Source of the DNA: Thermanaeromonas sp. C210
GTDB taxonomy: Bacteria > Bacillota > DSM-521 > Neomoorellales > Neomoorellaceae
Direction: 5' to 3'
Assembly: GCF_013167955.1 (NCBI RefSeq)
Contig: NZ_BLWF01000003.1
Span: forward strand, 248,001-312,000
Length of the DNA stretch: 64,000 bases
Each line of letters opens with the position of its first letter. Within the stretch, counting starts at the first letter, position 1. The position numbers and the translations under genes were made by a program. The notes under the pieces are model-generated. The model saw only the letters and a program-made list of their open reading frames with translations. It had not been told where the DNA came from and ran no database searches. Of the stretch, positions 4,782 through 17,401 are shown piece after piece.

Positions 4782-5540
4782 TTGGGAATATCCATTTGGG
4801 AAATGAAACAAAAGGTCTGTAAAGCGGTAGACGAAAGGGCCAATGATCTTATATCTATGGGCAACTATTTATTTCATAATCCGGAGTTGGGCTTTAAGGA
4901 ATTTAATACTGCTGCCTTTATATCTCAACAAATAGAACAAATGGGTCTCCCGTATAAGAAAGGGCTAGCTATAACAGGAGTTAAGGCTTATATTGATACG
5001 GGCAAACCCGGCCCAACGGTGGCAGTATTGGGAGAATTGGATGCAGTTATTTGTCCGGAACACCCTGCCGCAAACAAAGAAACTGGCGCGGCACATTGTT
5101 GTGGACATCATGCTCAACTTGTAAACATGTTGGGTGTTGGTATGGGACTTTTAGATTCAGGGATTCTTCAGGAACTTTGTGGCCGGGTTATACTTTTTGC
5201 AACGCCAGCAGAGGAACCGTTCGAGGCAGAATACAGAGCCAAGCTAAAAGAGGAAGGAAAATTAAAATTTACATGTGGTGGTAAGCAGGAGTTAATTAGA
5301 ATAGGGGAATTTGATGATATCGATTTAGCACTATTTGTCCATACTGGAACTCAAAACGTAATGAGAATAACTAGTAATGCATTTATTTCAAAGAGAGTAA
5401 TATTCTCTGGAAAGGAAGCTCACGCTGGAAATGCTCCACATCTCGGAATTAATGCCCTAAATGCCGCCACAATAGCATGGACAGCAATAAATTCATTAAG
5501 GGAAACATTTATAGAAGAAGATTATGTAAGAGTACATGGA

Positions 5541-5548
5541 ATCATGCC
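5541..5548 (+). repeat. 8-bp target-site duplication, left copy (ATCATGCC)
   Basis: ATCATGCC occurs immediately before the IS256-type element and again immediately after it (6992-6999). An 8-9 bp duplication is typical of IS256-family transposition. It falls on the codons Ile-Met-Pro of the interrupted amidohydrolase. Confidence 0.88.
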
Positions 5549-6991
5549 AGCGTTGTCCCAAAAATCGTGGAAAATGAAGGTGGCGGTCCCTCAATCCTCT
5601 GTGATATAACAGAGGTGGACAATCCATACAAAAGGAGGTAACCGCCACCAATGCCAGTATATCACAAGTCAAAAGAAAACCCAATATCCTCCGGAGGCTT
5701 TCCTAACTTACCTGACCATGTACAAGTATCCTTAAGGGAGATCATAGGTAAAGCCAAGGAAGGGCTCTTAGCCCTTTCCGTTGCCGTAGGCTTGGATGTG
5801 GTTCAATCCATGATGGAGGCCGAAGTAACTGAGATAGCGGGACCCAAAGGAAAGCACAATCCGGAGCGCACAGCTAGACGTCATGGGAGCGAGAAAGGTA
5901 GCGTGGTGTTAGGGGGGCGAAAGGTGGCGATCCGGCGTCCCCGGGTGCGCGCCATAAACGGCAGAGAAGTAAAACTTAAAACCTATGAAGCCTTCCAGGA
6001 TGAAAGGTTCATAACTGAGACAGTTCTAGAGCATATACTTTACGGGTTATCCATAAGGCACTATAAGCATAGCCTTGAACCCATAGGAGAAGAATTACCT
6101 GTTCATGGGACTTCCAAGAGCACCATAAGCCGGCGATTTATCTACGCTACCCGTAAGGCCTTAGAGGAGCTGCTAAGCAGGCCTTTGGGAGACAAACGTT
6201 TCTTGGTTCTGGTAATTGATGGGGTTGTGTTTGCCGGGCATACAGTGGTAGCTGCTTTAGGCATCACTGACAAAGGCGAAAAAGAGGTCTTGGGCTTATG
6301 GGAAGGGGCTACAGAGAATGCTGCAGTCTGTAGGTCTCTTCTTACCAACCTTGTAGAACGCGGCCTAAAGGTGGAAGAGGGTATACTGGTGGTCATAGAC
6401 GGCTCCAAAGCTTTAAGGGCGGCGGTTAAAGAAGTTTTTGGTAATCGGGCCGTAGTACAGAGGTGCCAGGTGCATAAGAAGCGGAACGTCTTAGAACACC
6501 TGCCCAAAGGAGCCCAAGAATGGGTGGGTAAGAAGCTAGAGCAAGCCTGGTCAGAAAAGGATTATCATAAGGCTTTAACGGAACTAAATAGGCTAGCTGA
6601 TGCCCTTGAAGATAAGTACCCTGGGGCAGCGAGGAGCCTGCGGGAGGGATTAGAGGAGACGCTGACCGTTACCCGTCTAGGTCTACCCGAAACCCTGTGG
6701 AAAACTTTACGGTCAACGAATGTAATAGAGACGGCCTTTGACAAGGTCAGGGTTGTTACCCGGAACGTAAAGAGGTGGCGAAATGGGATGCAGGTTTTGC
6801 GCTGGGCTGCAGCTGGACTGCTTCAGGCCGAGAAGGGGTTTAACCGCATCAAAGGATACCGAGAGTTACCCTTATTGGCCACGGCTTTGCTGGAAGTCAT
6901 TACTACTCCAGAGACTTCCAGGAGGGTGAAAACGGCTTAAAAAACGCGAAAGAGGGCGCCACCAAAATTCCACGACGTTTAGGACATGCTC
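5549..6991 (+). mobile_element. IS256-family insertion sequence, complete copy
   Basis: 1443 bp with one transposase gene and imperfect terminal inverted repeats: the left end begins AGCGTTGTCCC and continues with TCGTGGAA and GGTGGCG, while the reverse complement of the right end contains GCATGTCCTAA, then GTCGTGGAA and GGTGGCG. It is flanked by the direct repeat ATCATGCC and splits an amidohydrolase gene. The right 1237 bp recur almost identically at 15326-16562. Confidence 0.92.
5651..6940 (+). CDS. IS256 (mutator)-family transposase
   Basis: 429 aa, about normal for the family. Cut-and-paste/copy transposase with a DDE core: the first Asp lies in VLVIDGVVFAGH, the second in VVIDGSKAL, followed by the conserved RCQVHKKRNV signature and, near the C-terminus, LRSTNVIETAFDKVR with the conserved Glu. 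The ATG is preceded by AAAGGAGGT at a good distance. The gene is intact, so the element is probably active. Confidence 0.95.
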   Translation: MPVYHKSKENPISSGGFPNLPDHVQVSLREIIGKAKEGLLALSVAVGLDVVQSMMEAEVTEIAGPKGKHNPERTARRHGSEKGSVVLGGRKVAIRRPRVRAINGREVKLKTYEAFQDERFITETVLEHILYGLSIRHYKHSLEPIGEELPVHGTSKSTISRRFIYATRKALEELLSRPLGDKRFLVLVIDGVVFAGHTVVAALGITDKGEKEVLGLWEGATENAAVCRSLLTNLVERGLKVEEGILVVIDGSKALRAAVKEVFGNRAVVQRCQVHKKRNVLEHLPKGAQEWVGKKLEQAWSEKDYHKALTELNRLADALEDKYPGAARSLREGLEETLTVTRLGLPETLWKTLRSTNVIETAFDKVRVVTRNVKRWRNGMQVLRWAAAGLLQAEKGFNRIKGYRELPLLATALLEVITTPETSRRVKTA

Positions 6992-6999
6992 ATCATGCC
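6992..6999 (+). repeat. 8-bp target-site duplication, right copy (ATCATGCC)
   Basis: Second copy of the duplicated target next to the right end of the IS256-type element. It re-enters the amidohydrolase frame exactly. Confidence 0.88.
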
Positions 7000-7764
7000 G
7001 CAAGGTGGGAGAATTGCTATTTCTGTTCCAGCTGAAGTAAGTATGGAGATTATAGTTAGAGCTAAAACAATAGAAACAACAATCGCTATTAATGAAAAGG
7101 TAAATCGGGCTTTAAAAGCAGGCGCGATGGCAGTGGGAGCTAAGGTAGAAATTATAGATACTCCTGGCTTTTTGCCCCTGAGTCCAAACGAAAAAATGGC
7201 CAAGTTATTTGAAAACAACTTTAAATCTTTATTACCGAATGAGAGCTTTGTTGAACACATTCATTTTAAAGGTGCATTTGATATGGGGGATGTAGGACAC
7301 ATTATTCCCCAAGTTCACCCAATGATGGGTGGAATTGAAGGCAATCTACATCAACGAGACTTTACTATCGTTGATGAACAAATGGTATATATTAACCCTG
7401 CAAAATTAATTGCTATGACAATAATTGATTTATTATCTAATAATGCAAACGAAGCAAAAGAGATAATCAAAACATTCCAACCCAAGCTTTCAAAAGATGA
7501 TTATGTTCACTTATTAAATAGCTTATCAAAGATAGCCGTTTTCAATTATTTTGATTAAAACTTAAAGAGGAACGGTTATATTACTTGTTTCGAGTTGGGG
7601 TGGTAGGTGCCCCGGTCAGTTTGCTAAGGGGGTGATTCCTAACCATAAAAAATTTTAATTAGTCAATCGAGAGGTTTTAAAGGAGGTGATCCTGAAATAA
7701 AAAATCCTCATAGGTTATTAGAAACGAGATTTTTACCAAAAAAGGAAGATAAAGGAGGGTTATA

Positions 7765-7881
7765 ATGTTTACCCCAGAAAACATTTGGACTTTGGGAGAA
7801 AAAATCCTTTTTCCGATACAGATAGTTATTAGCATTATCATCCTAATATCAATCTTTAGGGAATACAAAGTTAAAAATTAA
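7765..7881 (+). CDS. 38-residue single-span membrane peptide upstream of MFS transporter
   Basis: A short frame with a near-perfect SD (AAAGGAGGG, 7 nt before the ATG). It encodes about 12 soluble residues (MFTPENIWTLGEK), one strongly hydrophobic span (ILFPIQIVIS then IIILISIF) and a basic tail (REYKVKN). Its stop codon is followed at once by a potential ATG and, 21 bp later, by the likely MFS start, so the two are co-transcribed and probably translationally coupled. The likely role is a small accessory or stabilising subunit of the transporter. That is inferred from position and topology; I do not recognise a family. Confidence 0.6.
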   Translation: MFTPENIWTLGEKILFPIQIVISIIILISIFREYKVKN

Positions 7882-7902
7882 ATGCTCGAGGTGGGAATAA
7901 AA

Positions 7903-9267
7903 ATGGAAAAACCCAAAACTAAATGGCGAATTCGTTATACAGCCTTAATCTGTATGTGGATAGCTTACTGTATGTTACAACTGGACCGTCAAAAAACTAC
8001 GGTTTTAATGCCAGTTATTCGTGAAGATATCGGGTTGGATCATGCCCAAATAGGTATTTTGATCGGTACGTTTACCTTAATTTTTGCCACAATGCAATTT
8101 ATATCAGGTTATATAGTGAATAGAGTAGGTCTTAAAAGGGTTATGGCGGTAGCGCTTGCCGGGTTCTCGGTTTCCACCTGGTGGACCGGTTTTGTGACAA
8201 GCTTTGAATCCTTTTTGTTCAGGTATGCAATCTTTGGTTGGTTCGAAGGGTTAAATCCCCCGGCTGCAGTTCAATTAGTTTCCCGATGGTTTCCCAAGAG
8301 AGAAAGAGGTAAAGCGTCGGCTGTTTGGGCAACAACCTGGGTAATAACACCAATTTGGGCGCCGATAGTGGCTGTAGCACTCATGAATGCTACTAGCTGG
8401 AGGTGGGTGTTTGGCTTCTGCGCTTTAGCAGGATTACCCGCTCTACTATTAATTAAGTATTTTATCTTTGACCGGCCTGAACAGTATCGTTTTAAGGGGA
8501 AAACTATGCCCGAATATGAATTGGAGGAAATCTATGAAGATGAAATAGCAGAAGAACAAAAAAAGAACCCTGCAAAGGTTATCACATATAAGGATGTTAT
8601 TAATAAAAAAGACGGAACGGCTTTGAGGGTTGCCGATGTTTATAAAAATGTATCTATTTGGTTATTAAGCCTGGCAGCCTTTTTCCACAACACCTTATTT
8701 TGGGGAATGAACATTTGGCTTCCCCTCTATTTAACGGAAGTACACAAGTATAATATGCAGACTATGGCTATATTAGTTGGATTGTACAATTTATCTGGAG
8801 CCATTGGCCAATTCCTATGTGGCGCAGTTTCAGACCGAATTGGCGTGCGTAGGCCATTTATGATTGCTTCTAATTTATTGAGCCTACTGTTTATGATTTT
8901 ATTTGTTACTTTAATTAAACCAGGTACACCCTTTATTGTAACGGCTTTATTGCTGCTAGTTACGGGCTTTTTCCTCAATATGCATTGGGCCGTACAGGCA
9001 GCCCTGAGTAGCGAACTTTCTTCCCCAGATCTTGGTAGTGTAGCTATTGGAGTGGTCAATGGAATGGCCCAATATGGCTCAGCTGCGGCAGGCTATGTTA
9101 CTGGTTTTTTGGTTTACAAAACACCTCAAGGGACAACAGTCTATGATAATGCCTTCATCTACTGGGGTCTTTCGGCATTATTAGCTGCACTATTTGTTTA
9201 CTTAATTAAAGAAAAATCTCGTAAGGTACCAGAAGCTGCGCCTCAACCAGTTAAGACAAATATTTAG
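7903..9267 (+). CDS. MFS transporter, about 12 membrane spans
   Basis: 454 aa from the ATG at 7903, preferred because CTCGAGGTGGG precedes it; an in-frame ATG at 7882 abuts the previous stop but has no SD. The sequence shows two halves of hydrophobic spans joined by a charged central loop (residues about 200-245, rich in E and K). The loop between spans 2 and 3 has the MFS motif A form (NRVGLKRVMAVALAG), repeated in the second half as SDRIGVRRPFM. The N-terminal span with the conserved Asp-Arg pair (MLQLDRQKTTVLMPV) resembles anion:cation symporter-type MFS proteins that carry organic acids. Its place between two amidohydrolases and a GcvT-type protein suggests uptake of an N-substituted amino acid or amide. 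The substrate is not determinable here. Confidence 0.85.
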   Translation: MEKPKTKWRIRYTALICMWIAYCMLQLDRQKTTVLMPVIREDIGLDHAQIGILIGTFTLIFATMQFISGYIVNRVGLKRVMAVALAGFSVSTWWTGFVTSFESFLFRYAIFGWFEGLNPPAAVQLVSRWFPKRERGKASAVWATTWVITPIWAPIVAVALMNATSWRWVFGFCALAGLPALLLIKYFIFDRPEQYRFKGKTMPEYELEEIYEDEIAEEQKKNPAKVITYKDVINKKDGTALRVADVYKNVSIWLLSLAAFFHNTLFWGMNIWLPLYLTEVHKYNMQTMAILVGLYNLSGAIGQFLCGAVSDRIGVRRPFMIASNLLSLLFMILFVTLIKPGTPFIVTALLLLVTGFFLNMHWAVQAALSSELSSPDLGSVAIGVVNGMAQYGSAAAGYVTGFLVYKTPQGTTVYDNAFIYWGLSALLAALFVYLIKEKSRKVPEAAPQPVKTNI

Positions 9268-9419: not shown

Positions 9420-10964
9420 ATGAAACATACCCCCTTATACGAAAGGCATATGCAGATGGCTTCCAAAGTTATTAACCTTAAGGGTTTTGCACGTCCGGTA
9501 GAATATTTTGGCCATATACAAGAACATCATGCGGTCCGTGAAAGAGTTAGTATCTGTGATGTTTCACATATGGGAGAGTTCGAAATAAAGGGTAAAGATG
9601 CGCTAGCCTTAGTACAGAAGTTAATAACAAATGATGCCAGCAAACTTTCTATTAATCAAGCCCTTTATGCGGTTATGTGTAATGAGAATGGAGGTATTAT
9701 AGATGACCTAATTTGTTACCGCTTGGGAGAAGATCATTTTCTTTGGGTTGTTAATGTCACGAAAACCGAAGAGGATTATCAGTGGGTTTTAAAGCAATCG
9801 CAAGGAATGAATGTGACAGTCAAGAATCTTTCATGCGAAATAGCGTTAATCGCTCTGCAGGGACCAAATTCCAGGGAAGTTCTACAGAGAGTAACAAAAG
9901 CAGATCTGTCGGAGTTAAAGTATTATTGGCTTGCAAACACAGTAATCAGTACAGAAAGCATGGAAGTTCCTTGTATTATTAGTCGGACGGGGTATACAGG
10001 AGAACTGGGCTATGAAATTTTTGTTTCCAGGGAACTGGCTCCTCTTGTATGGGATGAGCTTTTATTAGTTGGCAGGCCTCTGGGAATTATTCCGCATGGA
10101 GTCGCCGCCCGGGAAAGTCTAAGAATAGAAGCAGGCTATTTACTTAACGGAAATGATATGGACGAGGAAACTAATCCATTTGAGGTAGGTTTAGAATGGG
10201 TTGTTAAATTTTCAAAGGAGTTCATTGGCAAACAAGCTTTATTAAAGATATTAGAGAATGGAATTAGTCGAAAGCTGGTAGGGTTTGAGGTCCTCGAACG
10301 CTACACTGTTAGATATGGATACCCAATATATAAAAACGGAAAACAGATAGGCCATGTAACTAGCGGCCCACTTTCTCCAAGTCTAATTAATAGAAGTGCA
10401 GGTTTGGGATTTGTGCCTGTGGAATACAGTGATGTAGGTACAGAAATTGAAATAGGGATTAGAGAGAAGAAATGTAAGGCCCGTATTGTCCCGGTACCGT
10501 TTTGCAAGCGTAGAGTTAAGGATGAACCGGTTATGAAGACTCACTCTCCTTACAACCTAAGATTTAGTACTTTCCATGTTTGGGTACATCAAGAAACTGA
10601 TAATGTTTTTACGCTTGGTATAACTGATTTTATACAAAGAGATCTAGGCGATATACTCTTTATTGAATTACCAAAGGTCGGAGATAAAATTGTTAAGGAT
10701 TCAATCTTAGGTTGGGTTGATGCTTACAGAAAGGTTTGGGATATCAAATCACCGCTATCTGGAGAGGTGATAGAAATAAATACGAGCTTATTAGAAAACC
10801 CAGAGCAAATCAATAAATATCCTTATACTAATTCAGGGTTAGTAAGAATAAAAGTGAATGCTTTGGATGATTACAAGACATTGTTGCGATACGAAGAATA
10901 TATGGAAGTCATTAGGCAGCTTCGACGATATGATAATTGGTCCAAAGAAAAGAGAATAACCTAA
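9420..10964 (+). CDS. GcvT-like aminomethyltransferase fused to a GcvH-like domain
   Basis: 514 aa. Residues about 1-370 match the glycine-cleavage T protein/folate-dependent demethylase fold: SICDVSHMGEFEIKG, NENGGIIDDLICYR with the folate-site Asp, LQGPNSRE, SRTGYTGELGYEIFV and AARESLRIEAGYLL. Residues about 375-500 are a lipoyl-carrier (GcvH-like) domain ending in SPLSGEVIEIN. In canonical GcvH the lipoylated Lys lies eight residues before that Pro. Here that position is Arg437 and a Lys (438) is one residue later. Such enzymes move a one-carbon unit from an N-methyl or aminomethyl group to tetrahydrofolate. No gcvP, gcvPA/PB or separate gcvH is nearby, so a role in demethylating an amino compound made by the amidohydrolases is more likely than glycine cleavage. 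ATG 9420 follows GAGAGGAG. Confidence 0.82.
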   Translation: MKHTPLYERHMQMASKVINLKGFARPVEYFGHIQEHHAVRERVSICDVSHMGEFEIKGKDALALVQKLITNDASKLSINQALYAVMCNENGGIIDDLICYRLGEDHFLWVVNVTKTEEDYQWVLKQSQGMNVTVKNLSCEIALIALQGPNSREVLQRVTKADLSELKYYWLANTVISTESMEVPCIISRTGYTGELGYEIFVSRELAPLVWDELLLVGRPLGIIPHGVAARESLRIEAGYLLNGNDMDEETNPFEVGLEWVVKFSKEFIGKQALLKILENGISRKLVGFEVLERYTVRYGYPIYKNGKQIGHVTSGPLSPSLINRSAGLGFVPVEYSDVGTEIEIGIREKKCKARIVPVPFCKRRVKDEPVMKTHSPYNLRFSTFHVWVHQETDNVFTLGITDFIQRDLGDILFIELPKVGDKIVKDSILGWVDAYRKVWDIKSPLSGEVIEINTSLLENPEQINKYPYTNSGLVRIKVNALDDYKTLLRYEEYMEVIRQLRRYDNWSKEKRIT

Positions 10965-11093: not shown

Positions 11094-12341
11094 ATGTCCT
11101 TGAAGATCAATGGTAAGCGACTAAAAGAACGTTTGATTGCTTTATCCGAATTCGGCAAGGATGAGGCTGGTGGCTGGAGCAGGTTTACTTGGACTGATGA
11201 TTATATTAGGGCCAAAGAGCTAGTGAAACAATGGATGCGAGAGGCTGGTATGACGGTTCGGGAAGACGCTATGGGTAATGTGTTTGGACGTTTAGCTGGT
11301 TTGGATGATTCTTTACCGGTTGTTGCTGCCGGGTCCCATATTGATAGCGTTAAGTGTGGCGGGATGTTTGATGGGAATGTAGGGGTGTTGGGGGCTCTAG
11401 AAGTAATTACGACAATTGCTGAAAACAAGATTAAAACTAAACATCCTCTGGAAGTAATTATCTTTGTTGAAGAAGACGGGGCGCGTTTTAACTGGAGAAT
11501 TCTGGGCGCCCGTGCCATGGTCGGAGAGGTAGCAAGGGAGTCTTTGGATAAATATAAAGATAAAGACGGCATTTCGATCGCCCAAGCGATGGAGGCGGCG
11601 GGGTATGATCCTAATAAAATTAGTGAGGTCAAAATTGATCCAAAGTATTACAAGTGTTTCTTCGAAATGCATATCGAGCAAAGTCATTGCCTGGAATCTG
11701 AGGGGGTTTCGGTGGGCGTTGTAGAAGGTATTTTTGGTTCGGTCTGGCTTAAGGTGACGTTAAAGGGTAGGGCTGATCACGCAGGCGCGACCCCGATGAA
11801 ATTTAGAAAAGACGCTTTAGTTGCGGCTTCTGAAATTATCATTGCCATGGAAAAGATTGCTAAGGAAGCCGGAGAAACCACCGTAGGTACCGTAGGGTGG
11901 ATTAGTGTTCAACCTTGTATGATTAATACAATTCCGGGCATTGTGGAGATGACTTTAGATATCCGGGATATAAATGAAAAAAATCTAGAGACGGCCATTA
12001 ATAACATCCGGCAATTTATCGGGGAAGTCTGTAAAAAACGTAACATCGAAGTGGAAATTGAAGAAGTTGTCCGTTTTTCTCCTATACATTTCCCTGATCA
12101 CATGATTGATACAGTGGAACAAGCGGCGAAAGAAGAAGGGATTCCCTTTATGCGCATCGCCAGCGGAGCGGGACATGATGCCCAAGCCCTGGCTAAGCTT
12201 ATCGATGTAGGAATGATTTTTACTCCCAGTAGAGGGGGTTTGAGCCACTGTCCCGATGAGTACACCGACTATGAAGACATTGCTAAGTGTGCCCAGGTAT
12301 TGTTGAAGGCGATGCTTAAGAAGGCTGAAGTTGTTGCGTAA
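11094..12341 (+). CDS. N-carbamoyl-L-amino-acid hydrolase/allantoate amidohydrolase family (M20)
   Basis: 415 aa, the usual family length. A dinuclear-metal amidohydrolase that removes a carbamoyl (ureido) group, releasing CO2, ammonia and an amino acid. Metal and substrate motifs are in order: AAGSHIDSV, GMFDGNVGVLGALEV, FVEEDGARF, FEMHIEQSH, the lid-domain GRADHAGATPM and C-terminal ASGAGHDAQALA. The ATG follows AGGGGAGGGG. It is the last gene of the island cluster, 129 bp after the GcvT-GcvH fusion. In known pathways it follows a hydantoinase or allantoinase, neither of which is in the window, so the carbamoyl compound must come from elsewhere or be imported. Sarcosine from N-carbamoylsarcosine would be a fitting substrate for the neighbouring GcvT-like protein; this is a hypothesis. 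Confidence 0.9.
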   Translation: MSLKINGKRLKERLIALSEFGKDEAGGWSRFTWTDDYIRAKELVKQWMREAGMTVREDAMGNVFGRLAGLDDSLPVVAAGSHIDSVKCGGMFDGNVGVLGALEVITTIAENKIKTKHPLEVIIFVEEDGARFNWRILGARAMVGEVARESLDKYKDKDGISIAQAMEAAGYDPNKISEVKIDPKYYKCFFEMHIEQSHCLESEGVSVGVVEGIFGSVWLKVTLKGRADHAGATPMKFRKDALVAASEIIIAMEKIAKEAGETTVGTVGWISVQPCMINTIPGIVEMTLDIRDINEKNLETAINNIRQFIGEVCKKRNIEVEIEEVVRFSPIHFPDHMIDTVEQAAKEEGIPFMRIASGAGHDAQALAKLIDVGMIFTPSRGGLSHCPDEYTDYEDIAKCAQVLLKAMLKKAEVVA

Positions 12342-12719: not shown

Positions 12720-12809
12720 GTAAGCGTCAAATACAACCCACCTTGGCACCACCCCCAAGTTTAGGGGATAATCCTCTTCAGAAAACAAGCTGAGGAGGAT
12801 TTTTATTAT
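12720..12809 (+). repeat. Solo IS66 left end abutting IS66 copy 2
   Basis: Begins GTAAGCGTCAAATACAACCC and runs through the IS66 leader (inverted repeat, GGGGATAATCCTC, GAGGAGGAT) up to where tnpA should start, then stops at TTTTATTAT, exactly where the next IS66 left end begins at 12810. It resembles the leader of copy 1 more than that of copy 2, so it is probably the remains of a third element into which copy 2 inserted or with which it recombined. Confidence 0.7.
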
Positions 12810-12898
12810 GTAAGCGTCAAATATAACCCACCTTGGCATTGTGCTCGAGTTTAAGGGATAATCTTCCTCGGAAAACTAACTGAGGAGGATTTCCCCTT

Positions 12899-13225
12899 AT
12901 GACCAGAGCCGAATTACAGCAACTGTGGGAAGCTCGTATAGCCGAATACAGGGAAAGCGGGCAAAGCGTTAAAGAATGGTGCGCCTCCCATGAGGGCATT
13001 AGCCCCAGGCAGTTATGGTACTGGCTGCGGAAGTATAAAGACCAAAACGGAGTTTCCCTCGAGAAGCCAACCCGTTGGCTGCCGGTAGAAATAAGCGAGT
13101 CATCTTCTGGGGATGGGGGCAACTCCTTGCTGGTCAGGATAGGCAAGACCAGCATCGAGGTAAGACCCGGGTTTGACCCGGCCTTGCTCACCCAGGTAGT
13201 CCGGGTGCTGATAGCGTTATGCTAA
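12899..13225 (+). CDS. tnpA: IS66 accessory protein TnpA
   Basis: 108 aa, HTH-type IS66 Orf1 with the KEWCASHEGISPRQLWYWL segment. The SD is TGAGGAGG upstream of the ATG. It differs from the copy at 1624-1950 only in the first third. Its last 7 bp overlap the tnpB start. Confidence 0.9.
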   Translation: MTRAELQQLWEARIAEYRESGQSVKEWCASHEGISPRQLWYWLRKYKDQNGVSLEKPTRWLPVEISESSSGDGGNSLLVRIGKTSIEVRPGFDPALLTQVVRVLIALC

Positions 13226-13575
13226 ACGAAGTTGGTATCGACCGGGTTTACCTCGCCTGCGGCGCCACAGACTTGCGTAAATCTATTGACGGCCTGGCGG
13301 TGCTGGTCAAGGAAGGCTTCGAGCTGGACCCCTTCTCTTCCTGCCTCTTTGTCTTTTGCAACCGTAAGAGGGACAAACTGAAGATTCTCCATTGGGAGCA
13401 CAACGGGTTTTGGCTTTATTACCGCCGGCTGGAGAAGGGCAAATTCATATGGCCGGTGGGAAATACTTCTTCTACCATCACCATAAGCCGCCGGGAGCTG
13501 CGCTGGCTGCTTGATGGTCTTCCCTTAAACCAGCCTAAAGCCCATCCTGAGGTAAAAGCGCGCACCATCTTGTAA
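13219..13575 (+). CDS. tnpB: IS66 accessory protein TnpB
   Basis: 118 aa, identical to the protein at 1274-1630. It contains the TnpB signature (ACGATDLRKSIDGL) and the LFVFCNRKRDKLKIL block. It lies between tnpA (overlap 7 bp) and tnpC (80-bp gap), the standard IS66 layout. Confidence 0.93.
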   Translation: MLNEVGIDRVYLACGATDLRKSIDGLAVLVKEGFELDPFSSCLFVFCNRKRDKLKILHWEHNGFWLYYRRLEKGKFIWPVGNTSSTITISRRELRWLLDGLPLNQPKAHPEVKARTIL

Positions 13576-13655
13576 TATAAAGCCTCAGGAAGAAATATTT
13601 TTACCTTATGGTTGATTCTAGAGGAATTGGGGCTGATTCGTCGAATTATTAAAGC

Positions 13656-15230
13656 ATGGACACGGCTAAGTCTATAGCTACCATGACCATAGAAGAGCTG
13701 CGAGAGCACTGTGCTCAATTGGAACAACAGGTTGCCGAACTTACCGCCAAGTTAAACTGGTTTATGGAGCAGTTCCGTTTAAGCAAGAAGCGGCAATTCG
13801 GTTCTTCCAGCGAGAGGACTTGCGCACTAGAAGAGCAGCTTTTGCTTTTTAATGAGGCGGAAGCGGAAGCCCGGCCGGAAGCAGTTGAACCGGATTTGGA
13901 GACCATCACCTACCAGCGCCGTAAAACGCGCGGCCGCCGGGAGATGAACCTGGAAGAGCTGCCGGTAGAAGTAGTAGAGCACCGCCTGCCGGAAGAGGAG
14001 CGGGTCTGCCCGTGCTGCGGTGGCCCTTTACATGAAATGAGCACCGAAGTGCGGCAGGAGCTCAAAATTATCCCGGCCCAAGTGAAAGTGGTCAAGCACG
14101 TGCGCTACGTCTATTCTTGCCGCCGCTGCGAGAAAGAAGAGATAACCACTCCTGTTATCACGGCGCCCATGCCTGCTCCTGTACTTCCGGGAAGCCCGGT
14201 ATCTCCCTCGCTTCTTAGCTACATTATGACCCAGAAATACGGGGCAGGATTACCCCTTTACCGCCAGGAGCAGCAGTTTAAAAGCTTAGGGATAGACCTT
14301 TCCCGGCAGACCATGGCCAACTGGGTGCTCCATGGAGCTAACACCTACTTAACCCTTATTTACGACCGTCTCCATGAACACCTTCTTAAAAGAGACATTC
14401 TCCATGCCGATGAGACCACGTTGCAGGTACTTCATGAACCGGGAAGGGAAGCTACCACCAAATCATTCCTTTGGCTTTACCGTACCGGGCGGGACGGTCC
14501 CCCGATTATCCTCTACGACTACCAGACCACCCGGGCCGGCAAACACCCCCGCCGGTTTCTAAAAGGTTTTAAGGGCTATTTGCATGTTGACGGCTATGAG
14601 GGCTACAATGGACTTTCAGAGGTCACCCTGGTGGGCTGCTGGGCTCACGCCCGGCGCAAGTTTGATGAAGCCTTAAAAGCCCTGCCGCAAGATAAAAGAA
14701 ACAAAGCAGTAGCCGCCCGGGAGGGGCTTAAGTTCTGCAACAGGCTTTTTGCCATAGAGCGCGAACTTAAAGACAAAACCCCGGAAGAACGATATCAAAT
14801 CCGGCAGGAGCGCAGCAAACCAGAGCTGGACGAATTTTTAGCATGGCTTAAGAAGCAGAAAGCGCAGGTGCTGCCCAAAAGTGCCTTTGGGCGGGCGGTC
14901 TATTATTGCCTGGACCAATGGGAGAAACTTGTCGCCTTTTTACAAGACGGGCGTTTGGAACTCGACAACAACCGCAGCGAGCGTTCTATAAAACCCTTCG
15001 TCATTGGCCGTAAGAACTGGTTATTTGCCAACACCCCGCGGGGTGCTAAAGCGAGTGCTATTGTCTACAGCATCATAGAGACAGCCAAGGAAAACGGGTT
15101 AAATCCCTTCCACTACCTTACCTACCTCTTCGAAAGGCTGCCCAACCTGGACCCGCAGGATAAAGAGGAATTAGATCAACTCCTGCCGTGGTCGGAAACT
15201 CTGCCTTCTGTTTGCCGGATGAATAATTAA
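13656..15230 (+). CDS. tnpC: IS66 transposase TnpC
   Basis: 524 aa, full length. The N-terminal leucine-zipper-like coiled coil (residues about 10-40) is followed by a zinc-binding segment (CPCCGG about residue 118, CRRCEKEE about 155) and the DDE domain: first Asp in [11 protein letters not shown], second in [14 protein letters not shown] with [10 protein letters not shown] behind it, and the Glu in [16 protein letters not shown]. The C-terminal IS66 domain ([11 protein letters not shown]) closes the protein. An intact gene, so a candidate source of transposase for all IS66 copies. Confidence 0.95.
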
Positions 15231-15325
15231 GCTTGTTTTAGCCCCTACCCCTTAGATGATTTCAGTAGGGGTTCTTTTATGCTTACTACCGCAACCCAAC
15301 AAGGTGGGTAGTATTTGACGCTTAC

Positions 15326-16511
15326 CAAGGAAGGGCTCTTAGCCCTTTCCGTTGCCGTAGGCTTGGATGTGGTTCAATCCATGATGGAGGCCGAAGTAAC
15401 TGAGATAGCGGGACCCAAAGGAAAGCACAATCCGGAGCGCACAGCTAGACGTCATGGGAGCGAGAAAGGTAGCGTGGTGTTAGGGGGGCGAAAGGTGGCG
15501 ATCCGGCGTCCCCGGGTGCGCGCCATAAACGGCAGAGAAGTAAAACTTAAAACCTATGAAGCCTTCCAGGATGAAAGGTTCATAACTGAGACAGTTCTAG
15601 AGCATATACTTTACGGGTTATCCATAAGGCACTATAAGCATAGCCTTGAACCCATAGGAGAAGAATTACCTGTTCATGGGACTTCCAAGAGCACCATAAG
15701 CCGGCGATTTATCTACGCTACCCGTAAGGCCTTAGAGGAGCTGCTAAGCAGGCCTTTGGGAGACAAACGTTTCTTGGTTCTGGTAATTGATGGGGTTGTG
15801 TTTGCCGGGCATACAGTGGTAGCTGCTTTAGGCATCACTGACAAAGGCGAAAAAGAGGTCTTGGGCTTATGGGAAGGGGCTACAGAGAATGCTGCAGTCT
15901 GTAGGTCTCTTCTTACCAACCTTGTAGAACGCGGCCTAAAGGTGGAAGAGGGTATACTGGTGGTCATAGACGGCTCCAAAGCTTTAAGGGCGGCGGTTAA
16001 AGAAGTTTTTGGTAATCGGGCCGTAGTACAGAGGTGCCAGGTGCATAAGAAGCGGAACGTCTTAGAACACCTGCCCAAAGGAGCCCAAGAATGGGTGGGT
16101 AAGAAGCTAGAGCAAGCCTGGTCAGAAAAGGATTATCATAAGGCTTTAACGGAACTAAATAGGCTAGCTGATGCCCTTGAAGATAAGTACCCTGGGGCAG
16201 CGAGGAGCCTGCGGGAGGGATTAGAGGAGACGCTGACCGTTACCCGTCTAGGTCTACCCGAAACCCTGTGGAAAACTTTACGGTCAACGAATGTAATAGA
16301 GACGGCCTTTGACAAGGTCAGGGTTGTTACCCGGAACGTAAAGAGGTGGCGAAATGGGATGCAGGTTTTGCGCTGGGCTGCAGCTGGACTGCTTCAGGCC
16401 GAGAAGGGGTTTAACCGCATCAAAGGATACCGAGAGTTACCCTTATTGGCCACGGCTTTGCTGGAAGTCATTACTACTCCAGAGACTTCCAGGAGGGTGA
16501 AAACGGCTTAA
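15326..16511 (+). pseudogene. IS256 transposase lacking its first 35 residues
   Basis: From KEGLLALSVAVGLDVV onwards the protein equals that of 5651-6940, including all DDE residues. The native start and SD are gone. An open frame runs back into the IS66 end (a TTG/ATG-like start near 15315 would add only MTLT), so a nearly complete protein could be made only if transcription and initiation came from IS66 sequences. I treat it as a pseudogene. Confidence 0.85.
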
Positions 16512-16562
16512 AAAACGCGAAAGAGGGCGCCACCAAAATTCCACGACGTTTAGGACATGCTC
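15326..16562 (+). mobile_element. IS256-type element, 5'-truncated copy between IS66 and CRISPR
   Basis: Matches 5755-6991 of the complete copy base for base as far as I can read, with a constant offset of 9571. The first 206 bp of the element (left inverted repeat, SD and 35 transposase codons) are missing and replaced by the IS66 right end. The intact right end stops at 16562, and the first CRISPR repeat begins at 16563. Confidence 0.92.
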
Positions 16563-16989
16563 GTTTTTAGCCTACCTATGAGGGATTGAAACGGTCACTC
16601 TCAAGTTGCTTTATCTCTGCCCGTAGCCGTTTTTAGCCTACCTATGAGGGATTGAAACGTTGTTCGGCATACTGGCTCATCCGCCTGGCCCAGGTTTTTA
16701 GCCTACCTATGAGGGATTGAAACAAGAAGCCTCCGAAGCATGTGAGACGGTACTGGATGGTTTTTAGCCTACCTATGAGGGATTGAAACCGTAACTCTAA
16801 TATGTCTCCATATTTCGGCACGTGCGGGTTTTTAGCCTACCTATGAGGGATTGAAACATCGCCAGGCATCACATCTATAGCCCTCATAAGGTCGTTTTTA
16901 GCCTACCTATGAGGGATTGAAACAGTTCGAGAAGTAAATGCCATCGGCCATGACGAAGGGTTTTTAGCCTACCTATGAGGGATTGAAAC
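16563..16989 (+). CRISPR. CRISPR array, 7 identical 30-bp repeats, 6 spacers
   Basis: Repeats start at 16563, 16629, 16694, 16760, 16828, 16894 and 16960. Each is 30 bp, beginning GTTTTTAGCCTACC and ending GAGGGATTGAAAC, the style seen in type I-B/III arrays of thermophilic Firmicutes. Spacers are 36, 35, 36, 38, 36 and 36 bp. The ATTGAAAC end marks the 3' side, so the leader should lie on the left, where the right end of an IS256-type element abuts the first base of repeat 1. No cas gene occurs in the window, and all repeats are identical, so the array is young or recently shortened. I recognised no spacer source. Confidence 0.96.
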
Positions 16990-17401
16990 CCATTTCCTTA
17001 TCTTCCTTAAAGGAGGGGACCAGTCGGACTACAGTTCGGAAATAACATTTCCCTTATATGGTGCAAAAAGTGGACTTCTTCAGAGGGAACTATCTAGAGT
17101 TTTACAAAGCTAATTTAATGCTGTTTTATGACACATATGTTCAATAAACGGATTTGATACGGAGGTGAATCGGAGGTGGTCGGGAAAGGGAGGGTTAAGT
17201 ATAGCTTAATCTCGAGGTGCGGAAAGTTACAGTCTAAAGCTGAACCACAGGATAGGCTTCCGTTTCTTCCCGTGCCTTGGATTCTAAATGACGACCTGCA
17301 AGGATTAGTGGCTACGGCGTACACATCTCGCTGTAATTGAAAAAGGGGAGGTAAGGGAGCATGTAGGTTAAGCAAGTTATGCACCGGAAACCCCAGCTCC
17401 C

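Follow-up and report, generated by a model that had tools for sequence, protein, structure and literature searches.

What defines the H-protein is its swinging lipoyl arm. The GcvT fold is also found in a series of demethylases (DMSP demethylase, TMAO demethylase, dimethylglycine dehydrogenase/oxidase, sarcosine oxidase alpha and LigM), and the efflux membrane fusion proteins have lipoyl-fold hairpins that are non-lipoylated and in which the lysine is unused. The lipoylation motif of GcvH is Ex2Kx10G, and GcvH-L, encoded in the SirTM operon, keeps the lipoylated lysine (PMC4518038). The same is true of LbpA, from Hdr-like sulfur oxidation (PMC6067878). Here we describe a GcvT-GcvH fusion that has lost both this lysine and the cavity for the aminomethyl arm, whereas the lysine persists in the known paralogues of GcvH that have taken on other roles.

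Domain architecture of the fused gene

The window is a stretch of 64,000 nucleotides (C3:248001-312000) from a host genome of 2.68 Mb. The first-pass annotation had described a single 514-aa chain with a full GcvT-like and a GcvH-like domain, and this agrees both with the open reading frame, which runs from an ATG at 9420 to a TAA at 10962-10964 on the + strand, and with three Pfam matches: GCV_T at residues 6-261 (289 bits), GCV_T_C at 284-362 (73 bits) and GCV_H at 381-499 (104 bits, against a cut-off of 22.2). All three exceed the curated Pfam cut-offs. The features of the gene are as follows.

9420..10964, + strand: GcvT-GcvH fusion CDS, 514 aa
9435..10202, + strand: GcvT folate-binding domain, residues 6-261 (Pfam; 1woo fold match)
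10269..10505, + strand: GcvT C-terminal barrel, residues 284-362 (Pfam)
10506..10535, + strand: junction, comprising the old gcvT end, a relic AAGGA ribosome-binding-like sequence and a relic GcvH start
10560..10916, + strand: GcvH-like domain, residues 381-499, without the lipoylation motif (Pfam, alignment, motif scan)
10728..10733, + strand: Arg437 (the lipoyl-lysine position) and Lys438, both in the hairpin turn that the model places between strands 429-435 and 439-443

Loss of the lipoylation site and arm cavity in the H domain

Arg437 falls in the lipoyl-lysine column of a gapless alignment, eight residues ahead of Pro445, and is followed directly by Lys438. This column holds a lysine in 59/59 other GcvH proteins sampled from the phylum, which bears out the earlier claim that an arginine occupies the lipoyl-lysine site with Lys438 adjoining it; every separate GcvH that we examined has retained the lysine. 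At the fusion site the motif Ex2Kx10G reads Dx2Rx10G (D434-R437-G448), and a motif scan found no match to Ex2Kx10G anywhere in the H part of the fusion. The NCBIfam gcvH cut-offs were also missed (99.8 versus 115.85, and 110.9 versus 117).

The presence of a lysine next to the site raises the alternative, put forward in the first-pass annotation, that lipoylation has moved by one residue to Lys438 and that the carrier still works. Registering the motif on K438, however, places an alanine at −3 and a glutamate at +11, so that both ends are broken and Ex2Kx10G cannot be satisfied. In an E2 lipoyl domain, lysines displaced by one place were not lipoylated (PMC6270654). Because the motif suits position 437 and not 438, and because the displaced E2 lysines were unmodified, a shift is unlikely; with the loss of the residues that line the arm cavity also standing against it, we give a working carrier at Lys438 only the slimmest of chances.

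The residues reported for the aminomethyl-arm cavity of the E. coli H-protein are Glu12, Glu14, Ser67, Asp68 and Tyr70 (PMC7733448). Four of these five are changed in the fusion, with E12, E14, S67 and Y70 becoming F385, V387, W440 and K443, and D68 alone is retained, as Asp441. Given the loss of the motif, the failure of displaced E2 lysines to be lipoylated and the loss of the arm-cavity residues, the H domain of the fusion is very probably no longer a lipoyl carrier, and we infer that it is not lipoylated in the cell.

The fold itself has fared differently from the cavity. The fusion keeps 18 of the 25 near-invariant H columns, mainly glycine, proline, asparagine and hydrophobic fold positions. 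Structure prediction of the GcvH-like hairpin had been proposed in the first-pass annotation; in an AlphaFold model of the fusion (mean pLDDT 92.6, built from a 66-row alignment and leaning on canonical sequences) the GcvH fold and the hairpin are intact, with the two strands flanking a YRK turn. A prediction for the H domain alone, without an alignment, was of no use (pLDDT 36). The H branch of the fusion is the longest in the H tree, at 4.4 changes per site compared with a median of 0.47. The earlier reading of the carrier as re-purposed into a structural or binding domain fits these observations, the lysine and the arm cavity being lost while the fold invariants and the modelled fold are kept. 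The H half would then be a ‘pseudo-carrier’, having the GcvH fold but neither lipoylation nor a cavity for the aminomethyl arm. It probably packs against the T half, serving as a structural domain or as a lid to the active site, as judged from one AlphaFold model (pTM 0.73) with read-through T-H alignment rows.

The T domain

The T domain of the fusion scored 401.7 with NCBIfam GcvT (cut-off 300), and the model matched the T. maritima T-protein (1woo) with a TMt of 0.96 and 43-45% identity. All of the folate-site residues checked are retained, namely Y83, D96, Y100, N112, Y192, E199 and R231, the T. maritima counterparts of which are Y83, D96, Y100, N112, Y188, E195 and R227; the last T residues of the fusion were left out of this comparison and of the T tree. 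We take D96 of the T. maritima protein to be the catalytic aspartate and, from T-protein structures, the other six residues to be folate contacts.

Near-invariant T columns have nevertheless changed to an unusual degree: the fusion departs at 16/86, compared with 7 for the worst of 43 other T-proteins. Departures at otherwise invariant positions include G44S, F46C, N115K and Y243N, and several are grouped at 109-118 and 228-246. The T branch has a length of 1.02, against a median of 0.42. This suggests a T half with an altered substrate side and an unaltered folate side. Such a T half would still bind tetrahydrofolate (THF) and would most likely transfer to it a one-carbon group from a small molecule that is reached directly, and not from a lipoyl arm. 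The fusion would presumably be catalytically active.

The junction and the distribution of the fusion

Met372 (10533) corresponds to a GcvH-type start inside the fusion and is preceded by AAGGA, while another reading frame at the junction has a TAG directly after the PFCK codons. In 22 sampled loci, some of which are the same genome counted twice, gcvT and gcvH are adjacent and in frame. The partner of the T-protein would be the neighbouring gcvH product, joined to it through loss of the gene boundary. The fused frame could have arisen by a one-base deletion or by stop loss, but a one-base assembly error would also yield it. The out-of-frame TAG, followed by the AAGGA-like sequence and the ATG, has the layout of a normal gcvT-gcvH pair, and this, together with the 22 loci, is what would be expected if a missing base had merged two separate genes. 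Against this, the assembly is good (19 contigs, 99.4% complete), and a real deletion or stop loss would leave an identical junction. We consider an artefact improbable; it would concern the fusion and not the arginine, since the K-to-R change and the cavity losses do not depend on the junction.

No orthologue of the fusion was found by an H-domain search of 398 genomes of the phylum, among the other 21 genomes of its order (all 22 genomes being searched) or in 59 genomes of the class that holds the nearest T-domain relatives; the three samples overlap in part. A contig search returned one canonical operon only, and no fusion orthologue was found in viral contigs or plasmids. Long matches that resembled fusions ‘with a stop inside’ were actually adjacent, in-frame gcvT-gcvH gene pairs.

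Glycine cleavage genes elsewhere in the host

As stated in the first-pass annotation, gcvP and lipoate genes are missing from the vicinity: neither gcvP nor lplA had a match in the window or in the 12 kb upstream. The host has a canonical gcvT-gcvH-gcvPA-gcvPB-lplA operon on contig C1, and its genome carries two LplA/LipB-family genes. Since this complete glycine cleavage system (GCS) lies elsewhere, the fusion is a paralogue, and the host does not depend on it to cleave glycine in the usual way.

A second free-standing, lysine-containing GcvH is encoded at L067:9633-10034 (C4:378.6k), beside Fe-S/Hdr-like and PHP-domain genes and away from any gcvT or gcvP, in an arrangement reminiscent of LbpA-type use. 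The canonical GCS-lplA operon (L066:161-13169) follows xanthine dehydrogenase-like, amidohydrolase and amino-acid/carbamate-kinase-like genes, and a gene for AllG (oxamate carbamoyltransferase) is present on contig C4 (L067). It would appear that the host can break down purines or allantoin.

A foreign island around the fusion

The GC content is 38.7% for the fusion gene and ∼40% for its neighbourhood, compared with ∼57% beyond 18 kb, a composition foreign to the surrounding sequence. The neighbours of the fusion are as follows.

4782..7558, + strand: M20 amidohydrolase gene, split by a Mutator/IS256-type element (transposase 5651-6940)
7882..9267, + strand: MFS transporter, anion:cation symporter-like, upstream neighbour
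11094..12341, + strand: hydantoinase/carbamoylase-family (allantoate/N-carbamoyl) amidohydrolase, downstream neighbour

The combined halves of the M20 gene span nearly the whole TIGR01891 profile and, because this neighbour has been broken by an insertion sequence (IS), the island may be decaying. The best relative of the MFS transporter in 299 genomes of the phylum is 34% identical, and searches of relatives with the MFS and carbamoylase neighbours turned up no syntenic cluster. As inferred only from the neighbouring genes, the island may serve ureide or N-carbamoyl amino acid catabolism; the substrate of the fusion would then be an N-methyl or aminomethyl compound produced by this route, a guess made from the neighbours.

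Two inverted IS66-type copies, 96.6% identical and located at 1-2041 and 12809-15325, bracket the island. A single transposition of a composite IS66 element is not supported, as the left copy has its own flanking direct repeat of ∼15 bp (AATTTCCGACGTTCC), which suggests that it was inserted independently. CRISPR repeats (GTTTTTAGCCTACCTATGAGGGATTGAAAC) at 16563-16990 abut an IS256-type copy at 15325-16562, and a long array with the same repeat, accompanied by cas3/cas1, lies ∼20 kb upstream (L069 about 5760-8850). What was once a single CRISPR array may have been divided by the mobile elements and the island.

Function or decay

The reading that we favour, tentatively and at a little short of an even chance, is that the fusion is a laterally acquired, lipoate-independent THF enzyme with a non-lipoylated, fused pseudo-carrier H domain. 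If this is true, the fusion would show a carrier-dependent enzyme pair turning into a stand-alone folate enzyme. The main rival, which we regard as rather unlikely though still to be taken seriously, is decay: the gene would be the remnant of a second laterally acquired GCS locus from which gcvP has been lost, with the H domain drifting without function and the constraint on the T domain relaxed. The island is riddled with insertion sequences and the M20 neighbour is interrupted, both domains show long branches and departures, the full host GCS makes the copy dispensable and orthologues were not found in the relatives searched. Decay is less easily reconciled with 1,545 bases free of stops and frameshifts, or with the retention of 70/86 near-invariant T columns and all of the folate residues checked. 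Had the H domain drifted freely along a branch of some 4 changes per site, 18/25 of its near-invariant columns would not still be in place, and the H changes strike the arm cavity while the fold residues stay. Relaxation that began only with the transfer would remain compatible with these data.

A more specific proposal, which we hold to be unlikely as it stands, is that of a lipoate-free T/H descendant with H as a fixed accessory domain and with T passing one-carbon units directly to THF, the donor being an N-methyl or aminomethyl compound set free by ureide hydrolysis. It is improbable that the fusion is instead a T-protein with a regulatory or accessory role, in which the T half uses the lipoylated GcvH of the host in trans and the pseudo-H acts as a competitor of that GcvH or obstructs the arm channel. 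The host does encode two intact GcvH proteins and a lipoate ligase, and the fused H domain keeps the overall GcvH fold in the model, but the T domain departs at otherwise invariant positions such as those listed above and the gene lies in a foreign island, far from the GCS operon.

Comparison with known systems

The fusion shares with GcvT, as represented by T. maritima 1woo, its fold, its folate-site residues and a score above the NCBIfam GcvT cut-off; it differs in having a GcvH domain added, in its 16 near-invariant departures and in a locus that lacks gcvP and lies in a foreign island. From GcvH it has the full-length Pfam GCV_H match, the fold and the hairpin, but it is without the lipoyl lysine, the glutamate and serine of the motif and the arm-cavity residues, and it falls below the NCBIfam gcvH cut-offs. 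GcvH-L and LbpA are likewise GcvH-like proteins used outside glycine cleavage; in contrast to the fusion, they keep the lysine, and the fusion is joined to GcvT.

The GcvT-fold demethylases provide a functional precedent for the preferred reading of the fusion as a lipoate-independent enzyme, as they act on small molecules through a folate-binding GcvT fold, with no lipoyl carrier involved. Unlike these enzymes, the fusion has no oxidase domain. Its NCBIfam score was 402 bits for GcvT, compared with 281 for TMAO demethylase, 180 for SoxA and 154 for DMSP demethylase, and membership of the TMAO, DMSP or sarcosine demethylases was rejected as the scores lie far below the cut-offs of those families. 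With the efflux membrane fusion proteins, the fusion would have in common a lipoyl fold that is kept without use of the lysine, although the two differ in architecture and function.
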